This document shows positions 1 to 15,910 of a stretch of 32,452 bases of DNA, piece by piece. The notes beneath the pieces were generated by a model, which was not told the origin of the DNA, did no database searches, and worked only from the letters and a program-made list of their open reading frames with translations. How positions within the stretch are numbered: the first letter of the stretch is position 1; every line of letters begins with the position of its first letter. This DNA is from a virus. A program made the position numbers and the translations under genes. The stretch spans positions 1-32,452 of the IMG/VR virus record IMGVR_UViG_3300029266_000979; one strand, given 5' to 3'.

Positions 1-3000
1 AAATCTGGTAATGGCAACTGTTTCACAAACTTGCTGTATGAAGTTATCATATCCTGTTGCTGGTATGTTATTATTTCTGAAAGAAAAATTAGTCATTCGA
101 CTGTTAGGACTAGGAATAATCGCACCAGAAATACTCGATGGTACTTCAGATGATAATAATGTTCTATTTGTTTGTGAAGGTAGAACGTATGAACCTAAAA
201 CGCTAGTATTGTTAATACATGAATCTAAATTTAGATAATCAATAGAAGGACATTTATCTAAATCCAATTGAGATAATAGATTTTGTTGAAGATTAACATC
301 ACGAAGGAATGGCATATTACTAAAGTCTATCTGACTAAAGTTACATCTCTGTGCGTAGAAAGTTTCTAGTTGGGGATATGATCCGCCAATAGAAGACAGT
401 TGTGAATTATATCCTACCTTAAGATCTGTTAGATATATGCTGTCGGTAGCAAAAGTTAGAGACGTTAGATTATTATAAGCAAGATCAACACTTGTAACAT
501 ATATGTTGCTGCTTAAATCAAGACTAGTTAATACATTGTTGTTTAGGTTTAGCCTTTCTATGGCCGTACTGTTTGAGAGATTTAGACCTTCTAGAGTACT
601 TCCTGAAAAATCCAACGCATTCAATATAGGAAAACTCTGAGCCTCAAAGTTAGTTCTGAGTCCTTCATATATAAATCCTTGAATTGCTAGTTGTCTTAGA
701 TTAATCATACCTTCTAGGTTGACATATTTAATTTTCCTGTTAACTGGAACATTTCCAACTCCACCTGTCCAATATAAAGATGGATCATTTAGAATAAGTC
801 TGGTAATTGAATCTGCTGGTTGATTGGTTTCTAAAGTTATACCTTTGATACTTTTCAAAGTCTCGGGTGCTAATGGAATATTAACTGGCTCTTTCTTATC
901 AACTCTAAAATAACATTCCTGTTTATCTTGAATTAAAATATCATCTAAGAAAGATCCAGATCCATCTGTGTTGTTAGATACAATAAATGTTCGGAATGCT
1001 TCGTTGTATAAGTTATACTTCAAATCTCCAATTGGTCTGGAGTCTGAGTATTTTTCACCCTCTTCTCCACCGACATCAGGCGGAGTTGAATATAGAACAA
1101 AAGTATCCTTCGCAAAGTTTGTTTCATCGTAGTATAGAATAGCATCTACTGTAGGATCTCCACAAGTAGAACCTGCCCATACATCATTCTCATTTTGACC
1201 GTCTTGTCTGGCGAAAACTCTTAATGCGATCGTACTGGGTTCTTCGGCTACGACACACTTACAATTTGCTGATCCTAACTCATTGACTAATATTGGTTCT
1301 AGGAACGCTACTTTACCACAATCTCTTCCTGTACATGAAGTTCCAGGTCCGTGGAAAAATCCACCCGACCCCTGACACTCAAGATAAGTTTTACCATCTA
1401 AACAAGTATCAGGGCCAGTACAACAAGAACCAGTTTCTACTGGTGTTGTTTGTCCTTGATCTACGCAACTGTCACAGGAAGCCTCCCACATACCATGAAG
1501 AATTTCACAATCTGTTTTTGTGTAATTATCCATACATACAGTTTGTCTTCCTGTATGATATGTGTAATCAAAGTTGCTAGTTCCTTCCCAATAAACTGCA
1601 TTAGTTTCTGATTTAACTTTACAGGTTCCTAATGTTACATCAGTATTTGGTGCTGTTGAATTACAACTAGGATCTGTACATGATTTACCAGGTCTCCATA
1701 CTGAGGTAAGGCGAGCCGTCAAGTCTTGTTCAGTCCAATTTTTATTTTCTCCTGCCGCTATAACTTTAAGATAGTAATCTCTCTTCAGTTGTAATGCTTT
1801 AAAGCATTGATATTGTGTTTTCATATCACCACAATTAGTAGTTTCATATCCATTTACTGAGTCTATTATATGACAACTACCTGCTAAATACTTTTCACCA
1901 AGTCCACTATCATATATGTCAGCATAAAGTAAACCACTAGCCGGAGCGGTTCTTATGTCATCACAATATATTCCTGGCCACCATTTTCCTTTTAGGTTAA
2001 CACAATCGTTTTCTGTCTTTGATTCACATACCCATCCATCACCATTATTGTACTGACATCCACCCCACATAGTGGCCTTGTTTATATCTCCATCACTTGC
2101 TGAGATGATACCACCATCACATTGACCTTCCTCACTAACTAAAGTAACCCACACAGGTTCACTTGAGTATGTTGGTCCTACCGTTCCATTCCACTTCCCC
2201 TTATTAGGGCCACTCGTATCATAATATTTCTTTGGAGTAGGTCTAGAACATACAAGTGATGCGCCATCAAGACCACCACCACCATTATTTTGTTCTGATG
2301 TTGGTGGTCGTGCATCTGATGTAAACATTCCTGTTTCACAATTGTAGTTTCCATTGATAGAACAATCACTCAATGTTCCGCTTTGATCAGGAGCAATCCA
2401 TGTTCCGTTATTTCTAATACAATCTTGCGATGTTTGTTGACCAATACATATTCCCGCTCTACAACAAGCACCAATATTGGTAGGGTTATCTATGTTGTTA
2501 CATGGATTAGATGCACATTGTGATGATATTGATGTTCCCACACCATTATGAAATACACCACCAAGAGACTCACAATAGTCTGGATTACATGTATCAAAAC
2601 AACCATCATCAATACAACAGGCATATTTTTGATCTAGGATTGACGATAATGAATCTTTTGTAACATCGATACATAATTTTCCACCGAAGAATTCAGCATC
2701 AAAGTTTGACTGAGTAATACAATCCGCTACTAATAAGTTGTCCGTACAACTACTACACGTTTTACATGCTCCGTGTAAATCTGAATTTAGTGGCAGTATC
2801 GGTGGTTCAACAATATTAGGACAATTATCTCCAAGTTCTCCACAAACAGAACCTTTACCTCTGAAAATACTTAAGTTTCTTTTACAATCAATATATCGAA
2901 CATTATCTTCACATACAAATGTATTAGTTGTTTCATCTAAAGTACAGCAAGCACCGACATCTTCTGAATCGGGCTGTATTGCCTTTGATCTTGTTCTAAA

Positions 3001-3012
3001 TTCTATAGCCAT
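1..3012 (-). CDS. Giant cysteine-rich protein with C-terminal leucine-rich repeats (partial)
   Basis: This frame is open without a stop from the ATG at 3010-3012 to the left edge, 1004 codons, so the C-terminus is missing. The start follows an AAAGG SD (3019-3023) that overlaps the stop of the upstream gene. Residues 20-565 hold several GxCC cysteine repeats; a clear copy at 528-565 begins GSCC and ends in two spaced cysteines. Residues 566-760 are unrecognised and poor in cysteine. Residues 794 to about 945 form at least six leucine-rich repeats of 21-22 residues, with units such as NNVLTSLDLSSN and NLLSQLDLD, similar in style to LRRs common in Bacteroidetes proteins. Unlike the two upstream giants it has no collagen-like N-terminus. 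It is last in the fibre cluster, so I infer a virion surface or adhesion role; the exact function is unknown. Confidence 0.9.
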   Translation of the reverse strand, partial: MAIEFRTRSKAIQPDSEDVGACCTLDETTNTFVCEDNVRYIDCKRNLSIFRGKGSVCGELGDNCPNIVEPPILPLNSDLHGACKTCSSCTDNLLVADCITQSNFDAEFFGGKLCIDVTKDSLSSILDQKYACCIDDGCFDTCNPDYCESLGGVFHNGVGTSISSQCASNPCNNIDNPTNIGACCRAGICIGQQTSQDCIRNNGTWIAPDQSGTLSDCSINGNYNCETGMFTSDARPPTSEQNNGGGGLDGASLVCSRPTPKKYYDTSGPNKGKWNGTVGPTYSSEPVWVTLVSEEGQCDGGIISASDGDINKATMWGGCQYNNGDGWVCESKTENDCVNLKGKWWPGIYCDDIRTAPASGLLYADIYDSGLGEKYLAGSCHIIDSVNGYETTNCGDMKTQYQCFKALQLKRDYYLKVIAAGENKNWTEQDLTARLTSVWRPGKSCTDPSCNSTAPNTDVTLGTCKVKSETNAVYWEGTSNFDYTYHTGRQTVCMDNYTKTDCEILHGMWEASCDSCVDQGQTTPVETGSCCTGPDTCLDGKTYLECQGSGGFFHGPGTSCTGRDCGKVAFLEPILVNELGSANCKCVVAEEPSTIALRVFARQDGQNENDVWAGSTCGDPTVDAILYYDETNFAKDTFVLYSTPPDVGGEEGEKYSDSRPIGDLKYNLYNEAFRTFIVSNNTDGSGSFLDDILIQDKQECYFRVDKKEPVNIPLAPETLKSIKGITLETNQPADSITRLILNDPSLYWTGGVGNVPVNRKIKYVNLEGMINLRQLAIQGFIYEGLRTNFEAQSFPILNALDFSGSTLEGLNLSNSTAIERLNLNNNVLTSLDLSSNIYVTSVDLAYNNLTSLTFATDSIYLTDLKVGYNSQLSSIGGSYPQLETFYAQRCNFSQIDFSNMPFLRDVNLQQNLLSQLDLDKCPSIDYLNLDSCINNTSVLGSYVLPSQTNRTLLSSEVPSSISGAIIPSPNSRMTNFSFRNNNIPATGYDNFIQQVCETVAITRF
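180..633 (-). other. Leucine-rich repeat coding segment
   Basis: This segment encodes residues 794 to about 945 of the partial left-edge gene. Units begin at residues 794, 816, 837, 859, 880, 901 and 922, giving a 21-22-residue period. The pattern is hydrophobic-x-x-L-x-L near each unit start, followed by N/C-x-L-x-x-L-D-L/F. The seventh unit is irregular. A further LRR-like motif (TNFSFRNNNIP) appears near the left edge, so the array probably continues outside the window. Confidence 0.8.
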
Positions 3013-3021
3013 ATTTTACCT

Positions 3022-6000
3022 TTAAATGAATCTCATAGTATATACACCATCTCTTTGTGATACGTTAGGAACCACCTTATTATTTAGTCCCCTAAATCTA
3101 CTAGTAGATTGTGAACCTGATGTTAATGGATTTTGTGTATTGAACGGATTGCTCCATGTAGTATCAACACTGGGATCTTTAATATTCGGTCCCCAAATTT
3201 CACCTATTCTACTACTACATCCAGTAGAAGGATTATATGTCGTACCACTAGCAGCAGAACCATTTCCTCCAATTGCTGGAGTTGATGTTGGCGTTGCTAT
3301 AGGAGCGTTACCAGCACAACTAGTTCCTGTTGTATCGCCTACAAATCCAGCAGGTGTTTTTGATTTGTCATGAATAAATCTACAACTACTAAAGACGTAT
3401 TGTTCACAAGGACCAGGAGACGGGGCTGGGCAGGGGATCCCTGCGGGATAACAGTCACAACCATCACACGCACTTAATTCTGAAACAGCATCTAGCGATA
3501 TTTCCCCTGCTGGTGATGTGTTGCTGATGTTAGGATCACAAGGCCACCCCTCGGTCTGACATACGGATTCTATATCACACCAGTTACATATAGCCTCTGC
3601 CTTCCTTGCCACTGTAGGATCGCAATCCGGATTCGTATCGGTGCCATCTATTATATTACACCAGTCCCCGATTTTCCAGTTCGGATTATTTATGCTGCAC
3701 TCATCACTAATTGGATTCTCACAGGTGCCATTTATTACTCCTATTTGAAGATTTGTTAGTTCTATTTGATTTTGTAATGTACAGGGCTTATACTTACAAC
3801 CTCCGGGATTTTTACAACAATCTGACCATCTATATGGAATATGAATTCCTTCTGGTGTAACGTAACCATCTCTAGGATTAGATGATATCCATTTTTGATC
3901 TGTAGGATTAAAAACGTCCTGTGGATATCCTTGCGTAGGCACTGGTTTGTATGGTCCACTTGCACCATCCCAAGGTCTAGTATAGCCAGGAATATTACCA
4001 TCAAAATCACAATTAGAGCATGTAACCTTAGTGTCCTTCACAGAACAAGAACTACAATCTCCAGCAGCACCAGTCGCTGTATCTCCGGCAGGACAATCTA
4101 ATGTCCAACTCAGACAGCAACATGATCCAATGAACTTTGTCTTTGGACAATTAGACATAAAGCAGGGATCTGTACTGAATGTTCCCTTACATTTTTCTGT
4201 TAACTTAGATACTGAATCAAAGGATTCGTCATTTTGTGAGACTTCAAAACCACCTTCATAACAATTACCACCAAAGAAGCAACAAGATCCTGATGTCCAG
4301 TCACTGCGTGGATCTATGCCACCACCACCGCCTAGGCCGCTACTTGTACCAAAGCCAGCGAAGGCAAATTCAAATCCATCACCATCTCTATCCGGATCGC
4401 CTGGTGGATCTGGTGGATTCCCGTCACACGGTTCTGATGTTCCATCATCACAGCACGGGTTTCCCGTATTACAACCACATGCGGGGTTGGGATCACAACA
4501 GTCGCCATCTCCACAACATTCAGGACTGGATGAATCTTGGCAACATGGACTCGCAGAATCTTCACAGTTACAACAATTTTGACCTTCACAAACACAATCA
4601 CATGTGCCAGCAATCGAACAATTGACTTCAGAACATAATGAGTCTTGACCCATAAAGATTCCGGTGAGTGCTGAACATTGTTGTGGTGTAATATTATCAA
4701 TACACTCATCTGTACATAGACAACAGGCTCCTCTATATTCTTTCTGCGGACAACAGATAGCACAGTCTTCTACATCAGGTGTCCATTGAGAATTACTAGA
4801 ATCTATTGCCGCACATTGAATCTCAGTAAGACCTGTACCATGACAAATTCCACTAAATGTATCACAGCAAGTACCAAAAATAAAGGGAGAACAAGCATCA
4901 ATTTCACTACAGATATCACATGGCACCTGTGGTGGGATTACAGAATCTTCTGGAACAAAGTAACCATTAACAAGGTTACAAGACAATGCTGTCGCTGGAG
5001 TTAAACAAACAGGTCGTACTATTAAGGTTATATCTAGGTTGGTACACTCAGAACAATCGTCAACTACTCCGCCAGGACATTGGACATTATCAAACCCACT
5101 GGGACTGCCTGAGGAACTGTATGGTATACAATCCCCACCCACAGAGCAATCAGTACAACAAAATTTATCTGACAAAGAACAAGGATCCACATCGGGATAT
5201 CCGTCAGGACCGTAAACGTTGATCGAGCCGATATCGAGCGGATCGCAGTTGCTCACATCGGATTCCCGTAAGTTACAGGCAATGGACTGATATGCACATT
5301 CACCGTACCGTTCTTTACAAACCGCTGCTTCACAACAATCACTAACCGCATAACATACATGACCACCAGTCTGATCTCGGGTACAACAAGAACCGACGCA
5401 ACCGGGTAAACATGTAAGACAGTCGCCAGGTTCGGTGGCACCCTCTTGACAACAGTTGGCAGCCCCACCACCTTCACCACATTGAGTAAATGCAGAACCA
5501 AAACACCAATGTCCGCAGAAGCCACCCTCGCAGCCTGGAAAATCAATTGTTCCAAAGTCACCCAAGTTAGGACAATCAGCAGGTGGATTTGCACCTTGAC
5601 ATTCACAAAATGTTGGTGCATCCGAATTGCATGAATATTCGATAGTGCTTTCACCAACACCAGAACAACATGCTCCTGTTATTCCCGCCCCACAAACATC
5701 ATCTGTTCTATTCACACAAGCAACTTCTGACTCAAACAAACCACTGATACTAGCACAATATTCGTCACTTACAAAATCAACACAGTTTAAGTTAGTACAA
5801 CAAGATCCGAGAGTACTTGAGTTGAATACATCAATATCCCAACCATAACCAGTCATTGTAGCAAACCATGTCTTTCCGTTATCAACAGTTGCCAAATTTA
5901 ATATATCAATACCATTAGTAAACTTTGGATTTCCCGCAAAGAAAACATTGTCAGGGAATGCTATATTATCTGGTCCATCCTCAACAACCAATGTAATATT

Positions 6001-7593
6001 TTTCATTTCGGCATAATCAACACCATCATCTGATCCTAAAGAAAGACCAGGACGTTGTTCATATGACCAAGTAATACCTGCGATTTGGAAAGGCGCCTTG
6101 ACGTGGAAAAAGTTAGTGTTTGTAATGTCTAAGTTGATTCTACCTGTAATAGTTTCTGTAGAAGTAGTTCCTGGTCCTTCACAACCACCATTACAACATT
6201 CCGTAGAAGTATGATCACAACAAGATCCAGATTTACATCCTAGTCTAAAACCATATTCAACACTAGTATCTTCATCGATGCCCGAGTCCACATCACAACT
6301 AGGCATTATTACCAATCGAATTTTACCAAACCAAGGATCTAGTGTGTTCTCAGACTCGAACATGTCTTGGGTTATTCTCAAACAATATGAAGCAGCAGTA
6401 TAACCCTCTATCTTTAAAGAACCATTAGTACAGAAATCCTTATCCCTAAACTTTGCTCCTATGAACTCATCCGCTGATTTACAGCCACTATCATATATAA
6501 TTGCTTGCTCTGTTGGGCAAGGAATTGCGTCTCCATCATCTGACTGATTCCAAGTCATTGGGTGAATATTCGATTCGACTCCATCACCAAATGGATATCC
6601 TTCAGAATCATTTATATAAGGAGTATTGAAGGCAACAATCTCTCGCCGTTCTTCAACATTACCATATCCCTCATCCAAGAAAGATACATTCCCAGATAGC
6701 GGATCTTCAAAATTAATTTTACTAGCACCCCATAAAGGATACTTTAGTTTTTTTGTTGCCTCTGGATCATTGACTTTTGTTCTAAGGATAACAAAACGAT
6801 CTGGTTGGGTTTGGGGCGAAACACTAACACACATATTACCAAATGTTACACCACCACCATCAACGTAACGAACTAGAGAAGATACATCTAAAATGTATTC
6901 TCGTAAAACGTCACTTTGTTTAGTATGGAACACTCTACCACAAAAAGCAGAATCAAACTCATCGGTAACTTGATCAATTACGTTTCGGAACTTAACCGTA
7001 ATTGAATCGCCTGTACCTGTATTGTCGGCAGATGCTCCGAAGAAGGAACCACTGGCTCCTTGTGCTTTCCATCTAGGATCTAAGTGAAGAAACTGACCAG
7101 TTATTCCTTGATCTACATACCCACCCGTAGCACTACCTGTTCCACCAATATAGATGTGTGTGTCTGTAACGTAGAGTTGTAGATCACCACTAGCAGTTAA
7201 TCCTCTTAGTTCAAAGGTTGTTCCAGTTCCAGGTCCATAAGATTGACTAACAAAAATTCTACCAGAAGATCCAATATTTTCTCCTCCTGCGGTTAGTCCA
7301 ATATAAGAACCCATTGGCCAATTAGATTGGTTTGTTGGAATATCTTGTTCTGTTATTGGGAAAGCATTTGGACCAGTTATGGCAGCAATAATAATAGACG
7401 TTGTATCTGAGAAAATTAATTTTGCTTTACTTCCATTTCCATCAAATGGGTATTCATAACCAGAGAGGTACGCAGAATTAGATCCTGTGGAACCAGTTGG
7501 TCCTGTATTACCAACAACACCAACAACCCCAACAGCCTTTACGCCCTCGGGTCCAGTTGGTCCTGTTACAGATTGAAATGTACTATATGCCAT
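3022..7593 (-). CDS. Giant collagen-stalk, cysteine-rich structural protein (1523 aa)
   Basis: Residues 10-37 are collagen-like (GPTGPEG, later NTGPTGSTG). A middle region to about residue 590 contains the module also found in the two neighbouring stalk proteins: a GITGQFLHL motif near residue 165, then KNITLVVEDG near 535 and a DNGKTWFATMTGYG stretch. From residue 597 to about 1440 the protein is a long array of GxCC repeats; a clear copy spans 955-992. I count roughly 120 cysteines by hand, about 8 percent of residues. Residues 992 to about 1055 are the densest, followed by a DPDRDGDG motif that resembles a calcium-binding loop and a polyglycine stretch. The last 120 residues are Pro/Ser/Thr/Gly-rich with few cysteines. 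The start follows AGAGGA at 7598-7603. It is probably a virion surface fibre or adhesin; no enzyme motif was recognised. Confidence 0.88.
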   Translation of the reverse strand: MAYSTFQSVTGPTGPEGVKAVGVVGVVGNTGPTGSTGSNSAYLSGYEYPFDGNGSKAKLIFSDTTSIIIAAITGPNAFPITEQDIPTNQSNWPMGSYIGLTAGGENIGSSGRIFVSQSYGPGTGTTFELRGLTASGDLQLYVTDTHIYIGGTGSATGGYVDQGITGQFLHLDPRWKAQGASGSFFGASADNTGTGDSITVKFRNVIDQVTDEFDSAFCGRVFHTKQSDVLREYILDVSSLVRYVDGGGVTFGNMCVSVSPQTQPDRFVILRTKVNDPEATKKLKYPLWGASKINFEDPLSGNVSFLDEGYGNVEERREIVAFNTPYINDSEGYPFGDGVESNIHPMTWNQSDDGDAIPCPTEQAIIYDSGCKSADEFIGAKFRDKDFCTNGSLKIEGYTAASYCLRITQDMFESENTLDPWFGKIRLVIMPSCDVDSGIDEDTSVEYGFRLGCKSGSCCDHTSTECCNGGCEGPGTTSTETITGRINLDITNTNFFHVKAPFQIAGITWSYEQRPGLSLGSDDGVDYAEMKNITLVVEDGPDNIAFPDNVFFAGNPKFTNGIDILNLATVDNGKTWFATMTGYGWDIDVFNSSTLGSCCTNLNCVDFVSDEYCASISGLFESEVACVNRTDDVCGAGITGACCSGVGESTIEYSCNSDAPTFCECQGANPPADCPNLGDFGTIDFPGCEGGFCGHWCFGSAFTQCGEGGGAANCCQEGATEPGDCLTCLPGCVGSCCTRDQTGGHVCYAVSDCCEAAVCKERYGECAYQSIACNLRESDVSNCDPLDIGSINVYGPDGYPDVDPCSLSDKFCCTDCSVGGDCIPYSSSGSPSGFDNVQCPGGVVDDCSECTNLDITLIVRPVCLTPATALSCNLVNGYFVPEDSVIPPQVPCDICSEIDACSPFIFGTCCDTFSGICHGTGLTEIQCAAIDSSNSQWTPDVEDCAICCPQKEYRGACCLCTDECIDNITPQQCSALTGIFMGQDSLCSEVNCSIAGTCDCVCEGQNCCNCEDSASPCCQDSSSPECCGDGDCCDPNPACGCNTGNPCCDDGTSEPCDGNPPDPPGDPDRDGDGFEFAFAGFGTSSGLGGGGGIDPRSDWTSGSCCFFGGNCYEGGFEVSQNDESFDSVSKLTEKCKGTFSTDPCFMSNCPKTKFIGSCCCLSWTLDCPAGDTATGAAGDCSSCSVKDTKVTCSNCDFDGNIPGYTRPWDGASGPYKPVPTQGYPQDVFNPTDQKWISSNPRDGYVTPEGIHIPYRWSDCCKNPGGCKYKPCTLQNQIELTNLQIGVINGTCENPISDECSINNPNWKIGDWCNIIDGTDTNPDCDPTVARKAEAICNWCDIESVCQTEGWPCDPNISNTSPAGEISLDAVSELSACDGCDCYPAGIPCPAPSPGPCEQYVFSSCRFIHDKSKTPAGFVGDTTGTSCAGNAPIATPTSTPAIGGNGSAASGTTYNPSTGCSSRIGEIWGPNIKDPSVDTTWSNPFNTQNPLTSGSQSTSRFRGLNNKVVPNVSQRDGVYTMRFI

Positions 7594-7639
7594 ATATTCC
7601 TCTAGTTATGTATATCAATTATTTTAGCCTGACTTGTTG

Positions 7640-10600
7640 TCAACCAACCCCTGAACAATCATTACCTCCTATTGGATTACCCTGGCCAATAGTACAGTTC
7701 GGCGGGTCGCTTACTTTAAACGACGAGTTACCTATTGGTATGACTGTTTGTGAATGACAATTAGTCAAAGTAACAAAGAACTGATATGAACCTTCGAACT
7801 CTACGCCGGCTCTTGTTAGATCAATACCACCCGGGCTACCCCCGGGGTTCGTAATATTAATTCCAAGAGCAGCAGTTATATCATTACAACAGTATGACGT
7901 ATTCGGAGATTCAGGATCCGTGTAGAGTCCATATACAAACGGATTATTACACTCAGTTGATTGACTCTCATCGGAATCCATATCACATAAAATAACTTTA
8001 ATATCTGGATTACAAAATGTGGGAGACGCATCGGGTAGTGACCCAGATAAAGGTACAATATCATCTAGTATTATTCTTACACTCATACCCAGGCTTGGAC
8101 AATTCGCGTCCCGTCCTGACTCAACACAAGTTAAGGTTTCCACGGTTGCGTCTGGCATATTACAGTTACAACATGTTCCCTCACCTAGACATTCACTACA
8201 TGTATCACCAGTAAAATCTGTAGGAGACGCAAAAGGATCATGATGAAAACCTAGATCAAGGTTAGTAATACCACAAGAACCAGTGAGAGTAGTACGATTA
8301 CAGTTTCCAACCTCGACCATCGTACATTTAACTTCTTGAGGTTGACCAGTGGGTGTTGTATAATAACAACATTGATCCATAGGAGTTTCAACACCACATA
8401 GGTCACAAAAGGCTGTATCATTAGCATTTCCGCTAGACCAGGTAGGGGTAAATGTAGAATCTCCGTTGAGGGTGTTAAGACAATGCCACTCACCAGTAGG
8501 ATAAGCACAAGTAGGATCAGCAGTTGCACTTGATTTATAACAACAATTTCCCCAAGACTGAGTTTGACAATTAACTAATTGGCATGGTTTATCTGATTGA
8601 GTATTTTGTAGTGGTTCTGAACCTGAAGTATTTTTCCCCAAGAAGGCTGGAATACAGAAAGTTCCTTCTTCACCGAATGGGACATCTTCACAGAAAAATG
8701 TTCCGTCTGATATGTCTCCTTGACAACAACTAGGTCTTAATATTGGATCACATGGGTCTGAATCACAACTCAAATTCTCTGTCCAATTTGGATCTACATT
8801 AAGAATACCGCCGCCGGGGTTTATGATAACCGTATTAACGTCCCTATCCTCACACGTTCCGTCTGGGTTACATAATCTACCTCTAGGCCTAGTACAATCT
8901 GGATCATTATCAGTCCATCTACTGTAGAGAATAGTGTTGCCATCAGCATCTTGAGTGTTGTTCGGACATTGAGCGAATGTGGTCTGATCCAGTACTTCTA
9001 CATCCACGCCATTATTATTAATTATTCGATAACAACATCCAATAGGATCACAGAAGTTAGGATCTGATATTGGGGCTACTTGCCAAACACCACCACCACA
9101 GTTGTTTTCACATGTATATGAATAGGTAGGACTTCCACTACCAGTACTAGTACAGCAGTGTCCGTATTCCGCATCGACTGCACAAACACAAGCATCGCCC
9201 GCACATATATTGTCTGGTGTAGACCAAGATCCATTGATCGCATTACACTCAGCCAATGTCTTCGCACTACATGATGGCGGATCCTCATCAGAACAGCATT
9301 GACCCGTTGAACATGGACTTATTGAAGAACAACTAGAAACTACAGTTTCATTATTTAAACACTTAATTCTAGTGGTACACTCGTTAGTGGCGCAATTGTA
9401 ACATCCAACCTCAGGAGTACCAAAGTCTTCTTGTAGGTCATCTAAAGATCCACATACATTACATGGTTGACCGTCACGACACAAAATTCTGTTTTGACAG
9501 TTGGTAACAATCAATCCATACAACTTGTTATTGTTGTTGTTTACATTTCTGTTAAGCCTTATTATTTCTTCGACTCTATCTTTTCTATTGCCTGTTATAG
9601 GTGTCATATCATCAATACAACTATCACCATAACAAAGACCAATATTGCGATTAGTAGAACCAACTAAAGATGTATTACCATCATCAATACTATCAATACC
9701 ATAGATGAGTGGAGTATATCTGGCGTTCTCGCTGGTTCCGCCTATTGATGAAGCAAGATCTTCTTGTCCCGCTAAACATGGACCGCTGTCGGGACATATG
9801 ACTGGAACAAAAGTAAACGTATTCAGTGCGCCAGGGACAGTTCGTTTTGTTGGTACATTGTTAACCGTGTTTAGCAAGTTTGGATGTTCAACTCCTTCTC
9901 TAAAGTTAGCAAACAGAAGATCCTTATAGTCACCTTCAATATCAGCACTACAATCTACAACTCCATTACTTAGTGCTTCGATTCGAGTTTGACACTCTAT
10001 CGATGATAGTTTAAAGTTATTAACATCAGTTGTAGAAAAAGTACCAAAGTTTTGAATGAGTCCAGCGAGGCTTTCCCAATTAACTGTATTACCACAGAAA
10101 GGATTCAGACTGTTACATTCTCTATCATAGACAGCCTCAAAGTATGATTCATAAAGAAGAGCGGCATCCACACTCCAGTTGCCATCACGGCGACACCATC
10201 CAACATTTGCGTCAGTAGGATCGTTAGCCATAACATAAGCACAGAAAGAGTTGAGACAAGGTTCACATGAGAAAAGAGAAACAAAATTATCATCGCTAGT
10301 TGTTGTTGGCCAAGAAACACCTGTACCTGGCCAAACTTTAATTCTCTGGCTACAAGACGATCCATCACATGGGAAGTATTCATTCACAGGCCATTCTGTT
10401 TGTTCGCACGTTGATTGATCGTTAGCATTAAGTAGTGTTATGAAATCTGTGCTTAGACCCTTTCCACATAAACCTGTGGCGTTTGTAGAGAAGCAATCGT
10501 CAATCGTTCGATCGTAATCACTAACACTATCACATACACTCCCATCATCACAAGCATAATTTGTTCCGTATATTTTAGCCGTATTACAATATGCTTTTAA

Positions 10601-13435
10601 TGTTCCAGCAGCAATCACATTGGGTGACAATGTGTTAACATCATTGAGACACTCAGTTACCTTATTGTGTCCAAGACAATAACCTTGAGTTAGTTCGCCA
10701 TCTGTTGCTACATGATCAGGATCAATATTGTAATTGTCCTCGCTAATTATGTAATCGGTAGAATATGTGTTTTTATCAACTGGTAAGCCTGTTATTGTAT
10801 CAATATCTCCAGCGTAGTGATACATCTGTTCAGCAAGTCCACCAGCACATGTAGATTCATCTACTGCGTAAGAAAGAACCCCTGCTCTAGCACAGTTTAC
10901 TGTTTCAATGTTTGGTTGTTCTGGATTTTCACATGGTGATCCTATTACGCAGTCTGCTGATAGGTTATCACCGAAGTAAACACCACCAGCATCAAGACAA
11001 TCATACTCGTTGTTAATAGAACAAACTGTTGAATTATCAATACAACAGTACCCATATTCTAAAGGATTTGCACAAGCGATTGATGGAGGACCATTTTCGG
11101 AATTATGGTTGGTAAGGTTTAGTGAACAATTTGTAGAGAACACACCAGCATATACAGAATCCTCTACTAGGTCACCAATAATATGTGCAGTGCCTTCGTC
11201 TTCATTATCTCCTAACATTTCTCTATAAACAGCCAAAGATTTTTTACTTTGTGTGTTATCATCATAAGTATTAGAAATTGACCATCCATCTTCGTTTATA
11301 GTAAAGAAAAAGTTTCCTTGTTTTCTCGTTGATGTTAAGTATATACGATTCTGTGATGTATCGCCAATCAATTTATCATCAAACTGCTTGTTCATGGCAA
11401 CAATATATGCCATTTCAGATATACTTGGAACATATCTCCAGTTCTCTTCTCCTAGGCCAGCACCATTAAAGGATTTGGCCCAAGACATCGCTTGAGTATT
11501 TGGATCATGAATTAAACCTGCTTCATCATATCTATCGAAGTGTGTGTTGTGATATCCATCGGACATTCTATCACATCCAGTTGGTCCTGAAATATAGTCA
11601 GTAGGAATTCCCGTAGTTAACAGTTGAAGATTTCCTTCTGTTCCTGTTACACCAGCAATCCATAATCTCCATTTCTTAAATGTTGGTGAAGTTGTTTCGC
11701 AATTACAAGAGATGGCAGTATCACAGGTTGAGCAATCATTAAATCCTTGATTCCATGTACTAGTAGAAGAAGAACATTCTAATTGTGTTACAGGATAATC
11801 TGGAGAGCATCCTGAAGGTGTACAGCATATACCAAGAGGAATTGCTTGTCCCGCACAACAATCGACTGTAGCACAGGTGGTTTGTGCGCCCATATGAACA
11901 CCACCATCACCAGAACATTGTGTAGGAAGAAGGTTTTCCCTACAATCAGATTCAAAACAACAGGCCCCTCTGGTAGATTCTACACAAGGATCTATAGGTC
12001 CATTTGGACCTTCATACACACAAGGTGTGTTGCTTACAAAAATTCCACCAAGATCACTACAAATGTCTGAAGTTGCGGTTGCTGATTCCCCATTAATACA
12101 ACAACACCCAAGATCTCCACAAGGATCAGGACAACTGAATGTTCCACATCTTTGATTAAGAAAGAAGTTTCCTCCTACATCATTACATTTTCCTCTTGAA
12201 AAATTAAAGCAAGTATTATTTACACAACAAGCACCAAATTCGTCAGCACATGGTTCACTAAAACATGTAACTCTATCGAACAATTCACCTTCACAGTTAA
12301 CATCGAAAACATAATCTCTACAATCTCCGTTGTTACAACATGCTCCAATTTTTGATGCATCTGCGTAAGTTACACCATAATCTATACCAGCAACAAAACA
12401 ATGCCAGTCTGTTCCTTTGTTAAACGAAATACAATTTATAATATCCGTTCCAGATTCACTTAATTTTGGACTTTCATAAAACTTGAATGGGTTATTTGAT
12501 GTACTGAATGGATTTTGAGAATTTGATGCCAATCCACCATTCTTAATGATCATACTTAAGTTGACAGACTCACCGTATGTAACACCATCAGAACTATCAA
12601 GAGCAGTATAACCAGCGTTAGTGTTTGTGGAGGCAGAACTAATTCTAAATCCCTGAGTACCAACAATGTAGTGAGTATTGGCCTCATTCAAATCAAGAGT
12701 AATAAACTCATCAACATTAGGATCATGTCTCTTAACTACTTCCTTGAAGTCTCCCAAAACAACATGAAGTGAATTTGCTTCGGCACTCTCTCCATTTGAT
12801 TCTTTATAAAAAGTTCCTGTAGCACCACTGATGAATGTTGTTCCAGAATAGTATAAAAGTTCACCAGTCTGCCCTACGATCTGTGACTGTTGTCCTGACC
12901 CTACAGGTGCTGAGATTTTTAGACCAGCGGGGGTAGATAGTTCTTCAATTGTAATATCTGGATCTTCGGTGACTATTGATTTGAAGTAAGCAGTAGGTCC
13001 ACTAACTCCTCTTAGAATACTAGAACCTGTTCCTAGAATATTAATATCAACTCTAGGATTACAAGGGGAACCAAGATCAGGTAGACAAGGATCTCCCACT
13101 GGAATACAAGTTCCACAGCAACAATACGATCCTAGTGGACAATCAAACCCAGCAGAACAAGAATCACAAATAACACCATTGATTCCACCACTAGGAGAAC
13201 CAGTTGCTCCCTGTATAGGACCAATGACAAAATATTGCCCGTCTTTGTTTTTTAATAATCTTTGATTACAATTTGTGACGCCAGCAGAACCAGAAATACC
13301 AGCACCAGTTGATCCAGTGTTTCCTGTGGTGCCTGTAGATCCAGTGTTTCCTGTGGCACCAAAAGACCCATCAGGGGCCGTTGCTCCTCTTGGTCCAGTC
13401 GGTCCCATTAGTGTAGAGATGGAAGAATTGCCCAT
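7640..13435 (-). CDS. Giant collagen-stalk, cysteine-rich protein with Lcl_C/DUF1566-like domain (1931 aa)
   Basis: Residues 10-47 are collagen-like (GPTGPRG, then repeated NTGSTG). The region to about 360 carries the shared stalk module: VGQTGELLYY, then LSMIIKNGG, then DIINCISFNKGTDWHCF. GxCC repeats start at about residue 361 (IGACCNNGDC); a clear copy begins at 490 (GACCFESDC). About residues 582-746 interrupt the array with a cysteine-poor domain containing NWRYVPSISEM and RIYLTSTRKQG. This matches the W-R-x-P-S/T-x-x-E ... Y-x-S-S/T pattern of DUF1566, known as Lcl_C from the Legionella collagen-like adhesin. Cysteine-rich sequence resumes to the C-terminus, with an unrecognised segment around 1000-1290. 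The start has AGGA 7 bases upstream. It is probably a host-adhesion or virion decoration protein; the domain match is from pattern memory, not a search. Confidence 0.88.
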   Translation of the reverse strand: MGNSSISTLMGPTGPRGATAPDGSFGATGNTGSTGTTGNTGSTGAGISGSAGVTNCNQRLLKNKDGQYFVIGPIQGATGSPSGGINGVICDSCSAGFDCPLGSYCCCGTCIPVGDPCLPDLGSPCNPRVDINILGTGSSILRGVSGPTAYFKSIVTEDPDITIEELSTPAGLKISAPVGSGQQSQIVGQTGELLYYSGTTFISGATGTFYKESNGESAEANSLHVVLGDFKEVVKRHDPNVDEFITLDLNEANTHYIVGTQGFRISSASTNTNAGYTALDSSDGVTYGESVNLSMIIKNGGLASNSQNPFSTSNNPFKFYESPKLSESGTDIINCISFNKGTDWHCFVAGIDYGVTYADASKIGACCNNGDCRDYVFDVNCEGELFDRVTCFSEPCADEFGACCVNNTCFNFSRGKCNDVGGNFFLNQRCGTFSCPDPCGDLGCCCINGESATATSDICSDLGGIFVSNTPCVYEGPNGPIDPCVESTRGACCFESDCRENLLPTQCSGDGGVHMGAQTTCATVDCCAGQAIPLGICCTPSGCSPDYPVTQLECSSSTSTWNQGFNDCSTCDTAISCNCETTSPTFKKWRLWIAGVTGTEGNLQLLTTGIPTDYISGPTGCDRMSDGYHNTHFDRYDEAGLIHDPNTQAMSWAKSFNGAGLGEENWRYVPSISEMAYIVAMNKQFDDKLIGDTSQNRIYLTSTRKQGNFFFTINEDGWSISNTYDDNTQSKKSLAVYREMLGDNEDEGTAHIIGDLVEDSVYAGVFSTNCSLNLTNHNSENGPPSIACANPLEYGYCCIDNSTVCSINNEYDCLDAGGVYFGDNLSADCVIGSPCENPEQPNIETVNCARAGVLSYAVDESTCAGGLAEQMYHYAGDIDTITGLPVDKNTYSTDYIISEDNYNIDPDHVATDGELTQGYCLGHNKVTECLNDVNTLSPNVIAAGTLKAYCNTAKIYGTNYACDDGSVCDSVSDYDRTIDDCFSTNATGLCGKGLSTDFITLLNANDQSTCEQTEWPVNEYFPCDGSSCSQRIKVWPGTGVSWPTTTSDDNFVSLFSCEPCLNSFCAYVMANDPTDANVGWCRRDGNWSVDAALLYESYFEAVYDRECNSLNPFCGNTVNWESLAGLIQNFGTFSTTDVNNFKLSSIECQTRIEALSNGVVDCSADIEGDYKDLLFANFREGVEHPNLLNTVNNVPTKRTVPGALNTFTFVPVICPDSGPCLAGQEDLASSIGGTSENARYTPLIYGIDSIDDGNTSLVGSTNRNIGLCYGDSCIDDMTPITGNRKDRVEEIIRLNRNVNNNNNKLYGLIVTNCQNRILCRDGQPCNVCGSLDDLQEDFGTPEVGCYNCATNECTTRIKCLNNETVVSSCSSISPCSTGQCCSDEDPPSCSAKTLAECNAINGSWSTPDNICAGDACVCAVDAEYGHCCTSTGSGSPTYSYTCENNCGGGVWQVAPISDPNFCDPIGCCYRIINNNGVDVEVLDQTTFAQCPNNTQDADGNTILYSRWTDNDPDCTRPRGRLCNPDGTCEDRDVNTVIINPGGGILNVDPNWTENLSCDSDPCDPILRPSCCQGDISDGTFFCEDVPFGEEGTFCIPAFLGKNTSGSEPLQNTQSDKPCQLVNCQTQSWGNCCYKSSATADPTCAYPTGEWHCLNTLNGDSTFTPTWSSGNANDTAFCDLCGVETPMDQCCYYTTPTGQPQEVKCTMVEVGNCNRTTLTGSCGITNLDLGFHHDPFASPTDFTGDTCSECLGEGTCCNCNMPDATVETLTCVESGRDANCPSLGMSVRIILDDIVPLSGSLPDASPTFCNPDIKVILCDMDSDESQSTECNNPFVYGLYTDPESPNTSYCCNDITAALGINITNPGGSPGGIDLTRAGVEFEGSYQFFVTLTNCHSQTVIPIGNSSFKVSDPPNCTIGQGNPIGGNDCSGVG
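13311..13356 (-). repeat. Direct repeat in collagen-like coding region
   Basis: An identical 19-base sequence occurs at 13311-13329 and 13338-13356, a 27-base period (nine codons). It encodes copies of the NTGSTG collagen-like motif at the N-terminus of the 1931-residue protein. The in-frame identity suggests recent duplication or recombination in the stalk. Confidence 0.9.
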
Positions 13436-13456: not shown

Positions 13457-14614
13457 TTAGTATGTAGTAAAGAATATATCTACATTTGGATTGGACTTCA
13501 AAGGACTTCCATACCAAACAATACCATTAGTATTTTTTTCTCCATACGAAACGAACTGATAAATGTCAGTAGCATCTGTCAATACAGGTCGTTCGTTATA
13601 AGGAAAAATCCAGTTAGATGGAAAGGTATCACCATCTAAAGTTGCCCCATCAGTCCTTGCTAGGAAATTTCCACCCTTAATTATAAGAGTAAAGGCAGAT
13701 GCTCTGTTTGTATTATCACCACCAAAGTAATCACTAAAATTATGATCCGTTGGTGTAACATCATTGAACTTAACAAAAGGTGCTTTAGCAGTGTTGGTGA
13801 CTAATTCTCCTGTCTGATCTTTGTAAAGTTCGTTTGCGTCTACTACCCAAACATTACCCCAAGGAGCAGTTGAACCATATGGATCATTTCTAATAGAAGA
13901 TGTGCCTAGATGAAGACCAGGATTTACATTGAACTCTATAGTTCTGGTTGATGATGTGATTGATTCACCAGTTACTTCTGTAATACCAAACCTATAACCA
14001 ACTTCATTATAACTTCTAGATAATGCTCGTATGGTTTGTCTTTCGGCGTTATATTCAAAACCAGTAGCACCTCGAACTAGTGGCGTAGCCTCGGCACTAT
14101 TTCCGCCAGAACCTCCCATATAGGCAATCTGTCCTGTTTGTCCGCTGACAGGAACAGGAATAAAACCACTACCACTATACTTAATATTAATCTCATCGTT
14201 GGTATGTGTTACTACAAAACCACCTGTACCTGAAATTGTTTTTATATTATTAGCAGTTCCACAATCCGCAGTGACCATTATTGGTTCGTATGGTCCTGTA
14301 GTTGAAGAATAAACTTCAAAAACAATTTGACCTTGTGGACCCAAAGATCGTGGATTCGTACAATCAATTGTTGTTGATATTCCAAGATCATGTAATTCTA
14401 CATCACCATTAGTATATAATGTTCTAGCAGAGTAACTTCCATCAATATCAAACTCACCAATTGTTATGTTTTCAATTGTAGCACCCGATGGACCACTTAC
14501 ACCAATAGGACCAGTTGATCCTACAGGACCAGTCAAACCATTTGGTCCTGTACCACCAGTAGGTCCAGTTGGTCCTATTCCGCCTAAGTTATATCCAATT
14601 ACACTATTTGACAT
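13457..14614 (-). CDS. Collagen-like short stalk protein (385 aa)
   Basis: Residues 12-45 are collagen-like G-x-x repeats (GPTGPTGGTGPNG). About residues 175-210 contain SGQTGQIAYMGG, matching motifs in the two downstream giant proteins. The C-terminal 90 residues carry AFTLIIKGGNF, then TDIYQFVSYGEK and GIVWYG, and end there. The same block in the 1523- and 1931-residue proteins is followed immediately by cysteine-rich arrays, so this gene looks like the unextended version of the same family. The start follows AGGGTG, and the gene begins 3 bases after its upstream neighbour stops, so translation is probably coupled. I infer a structural fibre or whisker-like protein; no enzyme motif is visible. 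Confidence 0.88.
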   Translation of the reverse strand: MSNSVIGYNLGGIGPTGPTGGTGPNGLTGPVGSTGPIGVSGPSGATIENITIGEFDIDGSYSARTLYTNGDVELHDLGISTTIDCTNPRSLGPQGQIVFEVYSSTTGPYEPIMVTADCGTANNIKTISGTGGFVVTHTNDEINIKYSGSGFIPVPVSGQTGQIAYMGGSGGNSAEATPLVRGATGFEYNAERQTIRALSRSYNEVGYRFGITEVTGESITSSTRTIEFNVNPGLHLGTSSIRNDPYGSTAPWGNVWVVDANELYKDQTGELVTNTAKAPFVKFNDVTPTDHNFSDYFGGDNTNRASAFTLIIKGGNFLARTDGATLDGDTFPSNWIFPYNERPVLTDATDIYQFVSYGEKNTNGIVWYGSPLKSNPNVDIFFTTY

Positions 14615-14617
14615 TTA

Positions 14618-15910
14618 TCACCCTGATACTTTGAGTGTTCCACCATCGGAATATATAGAGCCTGCTACGCCGGCGGAGGTTGGTAGATTAGTAAGCGAAA
14701 GTGTCTTAAGACTAAGTTGATTTAGGAATGAAGTATAACTAGAATCCCCAACACGAACAATCCAGTTTACGCTAACATATGGAGGTATGTTTTCTATGGA
14801 AGTTAAACTAGTAGAGGAAGGCTCTGATACTCCATAGTTTACGGAACCTGATTGGTTGGCAGTAAGATTCATGTCAATCTTTTCTGAACCACCTTTAACA
14901 TTTAAACCACTCTTAGTAGTAGAATCTCCTGTTGCTCCCATGATAAACTTATTTCTAAAGTCAGGAGTGAGAACCGAATCTAGAGTAATTGTAGCGGGAG
15001 TCAACCCAGTTGAGATAGCGCCATCTATAAATTGAAGTACTGCTGATGGAGGAAATCCACTTATAGTAAGATTCGTATCAGTGTATGATGCCTGTCCATT
15101 TTCACCACGAACATTGTTTATTAGATTCCCACTATTTATGATGACATGCTCAACAAGCAAACTATTAGATGTTTTCTTTATCACGTTTGCGACTAAGGTT
15201 CCTACCTCGACTCTCTGGCATTCCGGTGCTTCTGTACCTACGAAAGTTAAGAGTTCTCTAAAACCATATCGTTTATTGATTGCTGTACTAAAGTCTGGAT
15301 ACGTTGTTACACTAATAGGCGATCCATCACACATGGCCCAGCCGCTAGGAACCGTTGAACTCTGTCCAACAAAAGCATGAATAGATCCGACTGGGTTAAC
15401 TCCACTCATATAAACTGCGGTATCACCGCCAAGGTAATTACCAACATAGTTCTTGACAATACCTTTATCTTGTGTAACACCATTTGATGATGTAGAGGGA
15501 AGTCTAACTATGACTGTCTTTAGAACTGATCCTGCGTCGTTTGGAGGTGTGCTATCCATAATACCAGCGGTTACAGCACTAAGGAAGAAAACTTCTGCTC
15601 CAGTAGAACCACTTATTGTATTGTTGGTATCAAAGGTGTTCATTATGATATCACCAGCCATAACATAATTGAATATGCTAGTACTGATTGTACCATCAGA
15701 AACAACACCACAAACCTCTGCGTTCTGTGGGCTATTTGCTTGTGCTAGTGTATATCCATTTGATGCTACATCAAACCGAATAACATTTCCTGCCGTAAAC
15801 CCATGTGCAGCCTGAACTACATCAATGCTTAGTTTTGAACCAACTTGGGTTATTTCTCCAGCAATAGGAGTACCTGATATATTTGAACTTGAAGTATTGC
15901 AATCGGTCAT
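14618..15910 (-). CDS. Tail fibre protein with phage tail-collar domain (430 aa)
   Basis: About residues 172-220 fit the phage tail-collar domain: PVGSIHAFVG, then VPSGWAMCDGSPIS and YPDFSTAINKRYG. The matching C-terminal half is PDFRNKFIMGA and IPPYVSVNWIVRV, the usual end of collar domains in T4 gp12-type and other fibre proteins. Residues 30-150 form a module also present in the next fibre gene upstream: HGFTAGNVIRFD, then AEVCGVVSDG and a VFFLSA motif. About 45 residues follow the collar end. The ATG overlaps the upstream stop (ATGA), with AGGAG inside the upstream gene. It is probably a trimeric short fibre or fibre tip involved in host contact. Confidence 0.9.
   Translation of the reverse strand: MTDCNTSSSNISGTPIAGEITQVGSKLSIDVVQAAHGFTAGNVIRFDVASNGYTLAQANSPQNAEVCGVVSDGTISTSIFNYVMAGDIIMNTFDTNNTISGSTGAEVFFLSAVTAGIMDSTPPNDAGSVLKTVIVRLPSTSSNGVTQDKGIVKNYVGNYLGGDTAVYMSGVNPVGSIHAFVGQSSTVPSGWAMCDGSPISVTTYPDFSTAINKRYGFRELLTFVGTEAPECQRVEVGTLVANVIKKTSNSLLVEHVIINSGNLINNVRGENGQASYTDTNLTISGFPPSAVLQFIDGAISTGLTPATITLDSVLTPDFRNKFIMGATGDSTTKSGLNVKGGSEKIDMNLTANQSGSVNYGVSEPSSTSLTSIENIPPYVSVNWIVRVGDSSYTSFLNQLSLKTLSLTNLPTSAGVAGSIYSDGGTLKVSG

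Follow-up and report, generated by a model that had tools for sequence, protein, structure and literature searches.

Giant cysteine-rich proteins of an uncultured T4-like phage carry a six-cysteine unit common in planctomycete proteins and are candidate tail or neck fibres

Three adjacent genes next to the baseplate genes of an uncultured T4-like phage encode giant proteins, here designated A, B and C, that carry a six-cysteine unit of a kind also common in planctomycete proteins. Sequence and fold comparisons indicate that all three are very probably virion fibre proteins. With less assurance, we regard it as probable that they are large tail or neck fibres in which the six-cysteine units act as disulfide-bonded spacer modules holding host-binding tips. 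Cysteine-rich giant proteins have not been described for this position in the libraries searched, nor do they occur in the isolate genomes considered here, and their presence prompts one to ask how a virus assembling in a reducing cytoplasm could end up with the multi-disulfide fibres proposed here.

Gene order and the D180 marker

The window, i.e. the whole stretch of DNA analysed (an IMG/VR virus record of 32,452 bases), encodes on its minus strand, from about 29.6 to 13.5 kb, a block that sequence similarity assigns to the baseplate and tail region of a T4-like myovirus, with a T4-like gene order. In the direction of transcription it comprises the tail tube cap (gp48), gp53, a 1154-residue hub-type protein, gp25, gp6, two other wedge proteins, a 906-residue tail fibre, a 430-residue tail collar-domain protein and a 385-residue collagen-like protein, directly followed by A, B and C. 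The PHROG matches in the window are to gp6 (E = 3e-99), gp25, gp53 and the tail tube cap. The genes at the distal end of the block are as follows.

14618..15910, minus strand: 430-residue tail collar protein (short tail fibre, gp12-like); Pfam Collar E = 3e-8, above the cut-off
13457..14614, minus strand: 385-residue collagen-like fibre protein, 0.5% cysteine; adjoins A in L001, L003, L004 and L153
7640..13435, minus strand: giant protein A, 1931 residues, 141 cysteines; relatives in L001-L004, L007 and L129, more distant ones in alignment A3
3022..7593, minus strand: giant protein B, 1523 residues, 121 cysteines
1..3012, minus strand: giant protein C, at least 1004 residues, 54 cysteines, open at the contig end

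The preliminary description of this DNA had noted three consecutive cysteine-rich reading frames of 1931, 1523 and at least 1004 residues, with roughly 120 cysteines in the second, and the adjacency, coordinates and cysteine counts all agree with it. Complete relatives of C have 1100-1126 residues. Cysteine accounts for 7.3% of A, 7.9% of B and 5.4% of C, compared with 0-2.8% in the other 14 window proteins measured.

The slot of the giant proteins is fixed, with the short-tail-fibre gene at one end and gp13 at the other. The gene next to C in relatives encodes a 180-residue protein, D180, and behind it come gp13, gp14, gp15, gp16 and the large terminase, i.e. the gp13-gp17 order. D180 has an invariant C..C..CGGCGCGD..C pattern (for example in L005:13352-13894, plus strand). 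Since the initial loci had been picked via the repeat itself, D180 was used as an independent bait. A reading frame of over 250 residues with more than 3% cysteine is present among the four nearest upstream frames in 54 of the 57 loci whose upstream sequence extends to 2 kb or more, and a unit scoring above 12 bits in 40 of the same 57; gp13 lies downstream of D180 in all 79 loci with room for it. Nothing matching D180 was found among 50,697 phage records (tblastn), in Pfam, PHROGs or NCBIfam, or in 294 Planctomycetota genomes, and a search with the D180 consensus at E values up to 10 returned matches at chance level only. It occurs in at least 342 IMG/VR loci and can serve as a marker gene for a common, widespread and uncultured T4-like phage lineage.

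Cultured relatives carry giant or fibre proteins in the same slot, with at most 0.6% cysteine. The cyanophage giant virion proteins S-PM2p088-091 and SynMITS9220M01_085 resemble A-C in being very long, in lying between baseplate genes and gp13 and in belonging to T4-like marine phages, and the slot proteins of S-PM2 are annotated as virion structural; however, the cyanophage relatives compared contain only 0.1-0.6% cysteine and no unit scoring above 0 bits, and S-PM2p086 has a single cysteine in 687 residues. A slot filled with giant structural proteins is therefore already known from cultured phages, while its cysteine-rich content is new. Searches with A, B, C and the repeat-rich relative L134 (tblastn) gave no match in the 50,697 phage records at the limits used. 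Cyanophage matches obtained with L163 were rejected, as they involve a different part of the protein, with an FG-GAP-like annotation in some records.

Cysteine-rich repeat proteins were also seen between the baseplate hub and gp25 (L136:1650-6863, L140:624-5837, L135:4776-5966 and G017:C1:86865-90956), as well as, or instead of, in the slot beside gp13. They have 396-1737 residues and 11-17% cysteine, and several start with a CCCCGD motif.

The six-cysteine unit and the layout of the giant proteins

The repeat is a domain of about 37 residues with the pattern GxCC-x4/5-C-x7/8-C-x13-C-x4-C. In aligned copies, G-x-C-C is followed by four more cysteines, with a glycine and then an aromatic residue preceding the fifth. 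To avoid circularity, a profile was made from 50 bacterial units only. It recovers the phage copies, matching A 490-526 with 24.2 bits, B 955-992 with 29.2 bits and C 528-565 with 24.2 bits, in agreement with the copies quoted in the preliminary description (A 490-525, B 955-992, C 528-565). The best score among 600 whole-protein shuffles was 8.6 bits, and 10.2 bits among 600 shuffles within blocks of 60 residues. The repeat is not a chance pattern, since scores of 24-29 bits were obtained from the bacterial-only profile against a maximum of 10.2 in all 1,200 shuffles. The recognised features of the three proteins are listed below by protein.

13271..13408, minus strand: A 10-55, short collagen-like Gly-X-Y run; Pfam Collagen 20.4 bits (cut-off 27.2), E = 4e-4
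12377..12748, minus strand: A 230-353, phage-fibre-like beta domain (residues 106-229 of the AlphaFold2 model; matches in BFVD and to PDB tailspikes)
12248..12346, minus strand: A 364-396, six-cysteine unit 1
12131..12235, minus strand: A 401-435, six-cysteine unit 2; 16.0 bits with the bacterial profile, 24.1 with profile A2
12020..12109, minus strand: A 443-472, degenerate unit 3; 6.2 bits, conserved column block in alignment A3
11858..11968, minus strand: A 490-526, six-cysteine unit 4, the copy first described; AlphaFold2 pLDDT 94
11312..11497, minus strand: A 647-708, Lcl_C (DUF1566)-like; 17.2 bits, cut-off 34.9
10931..11053, minus strand: A 795-835, six-cysteine unit
9188..9304, minus strand: A 1378-1416, six-cysteine unit
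5707..5808, minus strand: B 596-629, six-cysteine unit directly behind the fibre domain, as in A
4618..4731, minus strand: B 955-992, six-cysteine unit, the copy first described; 29.2 bits with the bacterial-only profile
2836..2955, minus strand: C 20-59, six-cysteine unit
2362..2472, minus strand: C 181-217, six-cysteine unit
1318..1431, minus strand: C 528-565, six-cysteine unit, the copy first described; 24.2 bits with the bacterial-only profile
232..636, minus strand: C 793-927, LRR-like region; phrog_7816 E = 7e-9, internalin J E = 0.0014, Pfam LRR below the cut-off

The earlier statement that the repeat dominates the proteins does not hold, as recognisable units cover just 10.5% of A, 5.5% of B and 20.7% of C. 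They contain 33 of the 141 cysteines of A, 15 of the 121 of B and 30 of the 54 of C; in A and B the majority of the cysteines fall instead in irregular cysteine-rich stretches. No other residue of the giant proteins is nearly as conserved as cysteine, which is invariant at 126 of 129, 95 of 115 and 48 of 54 positions in the three proteins, compared with 27-29% for all residues. When A 125-572 was aligned with 21 relatives, most of them at 24-31% identity, four consecutive cysteine units proved to be kept in nearly all of the 22 sequences.

A consists of a collagen-like N-terminus, a fibre-type beta domain, a four-unit cysteine array, an Lcl_C-like domain and a further cysteine-rich region. B shares with A the fibre domain and the first cysteine unit (A 247-381 versus B 486-613, 28% identity, E = 6e-11 in BLAST), and C has its cysteine units in the N-terminal half and an LRR-like C-terminal part. 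The fibre-like character of A 230-353 is suggested by its predicted structure, which had 106 matches at E <= 0.001 in a Foldseek search of BFVD, with those named fibre, tail fibre, collagen-like or major tropism determinant at E values of 1e-8 to 1e-5; PDB matches include several tailspikes, with Z scores of about 5-6, near background. The AlphaFold2 model of a 448-residue stretch of A has a mean pLDDT of only 65, and the assignment comes from folding A, being extended to B by the BLAST match.

The collagen stalks, LRRs and Lcl_C-like domain mentioned in the preliminary description are all represented by matches, but in the window every one of these falls below the curated Pfam cut-off. The Pfam LRR model reaches 14.6 of the required 27 bits in the window and 24.8 of 27 in L005, and Lcl_C-like matches behind the array in six relatives score 20.6-29.1 bits (E = 5e-4 to 1e-6; cut-off 34.9). 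A collagen-like region and an Lcl_C/DUF1566 domain are found together in the Legionella adhesin Lcl, yet in A the fibre domain and the cysteine array stand between the two corresponding sub-threshold matches, and against the Adhesin_Lcl equivalog (NF046116) A scores 14.3 bits for a cut-off of 500. Lcl is trimeric and binds glycosaminoglycans, and its C-terminal domain is without disulfides (PMC11162425). As for T4 itself, A-C have no family match to fibritin (wac) or gp12 and differ from both in size and cysteine content.

Relatives of the unit in bacteria and a possible one in animals

Phage copies (171 distinct ones) and bacterial copies (680) have identical modal spacings, CC-x4/5-C-x7/8-C-x13-C-x4-C, and, together with the recovery of phage copies by the bacterial-only profile, this indicates that the phage and planctomycete repeats form one six-cysteine family. 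Units were located in contigs by DNA patterns. Among the matches listed for bacterial genome contigs, 109 of 117 stretches carry titles of Planctomycetota or its classes, the remainder being Zixibacteria, Myxococcales and others; in virus contigs the pattern found 26 stretches and a one-residue variant 22, most with several cysteine-rich reading frames. Searched as whole genomes, four planctomycetes gave 27, 34, 65 and 70 pattern matches. The link to secreted planctomycete proteins made in the preliminary description is borne out, as many planctomycete proteins whose N-termini look export-like contain the unit. Two metagenome-assembled genomes labelled Micrococcales and Alphaproteobacteria (L009 and L065) also have planctomycete-like repeat proteins, possibly on mis-binned contigs.

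The repeat proteins of Planctomycetota (Phycisphaerae), Zixibacteria and Myxococcales metagenome-assembled genomes share the unit and its modal spacing with the phage proteins but differ in their surroundings. An export-like hydrophobic N-terminus is predicted for 94 of 111 bacterial proteins versus 4 of 64 phage reading frames, the four being copies of one collagen-like protein, whereas runs of at least six consecutive Gly-X-Y triplets occur in 25 of the 64 phage frames and in none of the 111 bacterial ones. The bacterial proteins sometimes have dockerin domains.

No model in Pfam, NCBIfam or PHROGs covers the unit in either phage or bacterial proteins, and the repeat has therefore not turned out to be a known family with a different role, an outcome that would have spoken against the initial reading. 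In the literature covered, which leaves out most subscription journals, we found no named family for the unit and no description of cysteine-rich phage fibres, and EGF, knottin and snake-toxin type families are absent among PDB sequence matches up to E = 10. Structure prediction of a single repeat, one of the checks proposed at the outset, gave a confident model of A 490-526 (AlphaFold2 with 77 sequences, mean pLDDT 94.2) comprising a pair of short strands, one helix of six residues and an end in extended conformation; at 37 residues it had no Foldseek match of any kind, a result uninformative about the fold.

The best matches of a larger unit profile among PDB sequences are iRhom1 (E = 8e-4 for the whole chain, two stretches) and iRhom2. 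The alignment spans profile positions 3-38 and keeps all six cysteines in register, although beyond this register we saw no other part in common with these animal membrane pseudoproteases. The matching stretches (PDB 8snl chain B 571-606; 9xy4 chain A 102-127 and 201-236) belong to the iRhom homology domain, which has been described as lacking structural relatives. In the cryo-EM structure the iRhom ectodomain has eight disulfides, and in a model all 16 cysteines are paired (PMC11248996, PMC10148629), and the cysteines of iRhom2 form disulfides (PMC11248996). The likeness is weak and not proven, so it can be taken as suggestive only. Taken together, the comparisons point to an unclassified small domain that phages have in common with planctomycetes and possibly with iRhoms.

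Candidate fibres, disulfides and the alternatives

The adhesion apparatus initially proposed is one that A-C may form jointly. That they are structural proteins is very probable in view of the gene order, the fibre domain of A and the annotation of the S-PM2 slot proteins; since no isolate phage genome searched carries the cysteine-rich cassette, their placement in the virion rests on gene order and fold. The arrangement we favour is the following. The short collagen-like starts of A and B could trimerise, and the beta domain in both appears to belong to the phage-fibre type. The array of four six-cysteine domains in A, behind which an Lcl_C-like domain often stands in relatives, and the units preceding the LRR-like repeats with which C seems to end, would be three-disulfide modules forming thin, protease-resistant spacer rods, and these rods would hold tip domains that contact the host surface. 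The phage repeat proteins very probably originate in the cytoplasm and stay there, given the rarity of export-like N-termini among them as opposed to their bacterial relatives. Because they are without signal peptides, the fibres would be made and assembled in the reduced state, their disulfides closing on release into oxidising surroundings.

The same cytoplasmic assembly, which is that of T4-like fibres generally, could be read differently, namely with the cysteines binding metal (zinc, copper or Fe-S) and the units being metal-stabilised beads of a fibre that needs no oxidation. The conserved cysteine motif of the neighbouring D180 has a metal-binding look, and a search of 44 contigs yielded no Evr1/Alr oxidase, although it was run without a positive control and so does not establish absence. 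However, three disulfides per unit are favoured over metal since the bacterial proteins that share the unit mostly start with an export-like stretch, the unit's closest solved relatives, the iRhoms, place their cysteines in disulfides, the number of cysteines is fixed and even, and histidine is almost lacking (0.5% of unit residues, compared with 16% cysteine). We accordingly hold metal-stabilised beads to be quite unlikely.

Somewhat less improbable, though still unlikely, is that A-C are neck whiskers or capsid decorations comparable to T4 wac, i.e. long cysteine-stabilised filaments of the head-tail joint with a role in holding fibres or binding particles. In T4, wac lies between gp12 and gp13, which we take to be the equivalent of the slot occupied here, and D180, next after C, adjoins the neck gene gp13 wherever the downstream sequence is available. 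The fibre domains with Lcl_C-like and LRR tips, however, suit receptor binding equally well, and the repeat proteins encoded between hub and gp25 in L135, L136, L140 and G017 argue for use at the tail tip. A role outside the particle, with the infected cell releasing or displaying A-C, for instance as a matrix or aggregation factor derived from planctomycete surface proteins, could account for their giant size and for a module common to exported planctomycete proteins, but we consider it very improbable: signal peptides are missing, the genes keep a fixed site among the late structural genes, with those of baseplate and neck as neighbours, and the fibre-like domain is combined with a collagen-like N-terminus that is typical of phage fibres and was encountered in none of the bacterial relatives.

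Returning to disulfide-stiffened fibres, a more far-reaching version, which we put forward tentatively and think doubtful, is that the lineage adopted a disulfide module from secreted proteins and keeps its fibres reduced, perhaps by means of D180, with lysis as a switch for rigidity and binding. If this were true, oxidation triggered by lysis would render the fibres rigid and binding-competent.

Some further genes of the relatives may be mentioned. The 123-kb record IMGVR_UViG_3300030419_004788, whose fibre proteins reach 13% cysteine, contains a tRNA-Cys(gca) gene (L180:13549-13622, minus strand), no other tRNA being found in the 120 kb read. The pattern is not a general one, since two other large relatives have several other tRNAs but none for cysteine. 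The same record encodes a 497-residue protein whose N-terminal part is a thioredoxin-like CGWC domain (L176:12758-14251, minus strand; 21.4 bits, below the cut-off), the only thioredoxin match obtained. In the genome of another relative, about 17 kb (G003:C1:7418-24344; L170 and L171) are occupied by what, on reading by eye, appear to be sugar-nucleotide, glycosyltransferase and other polysaccharide-type genes.
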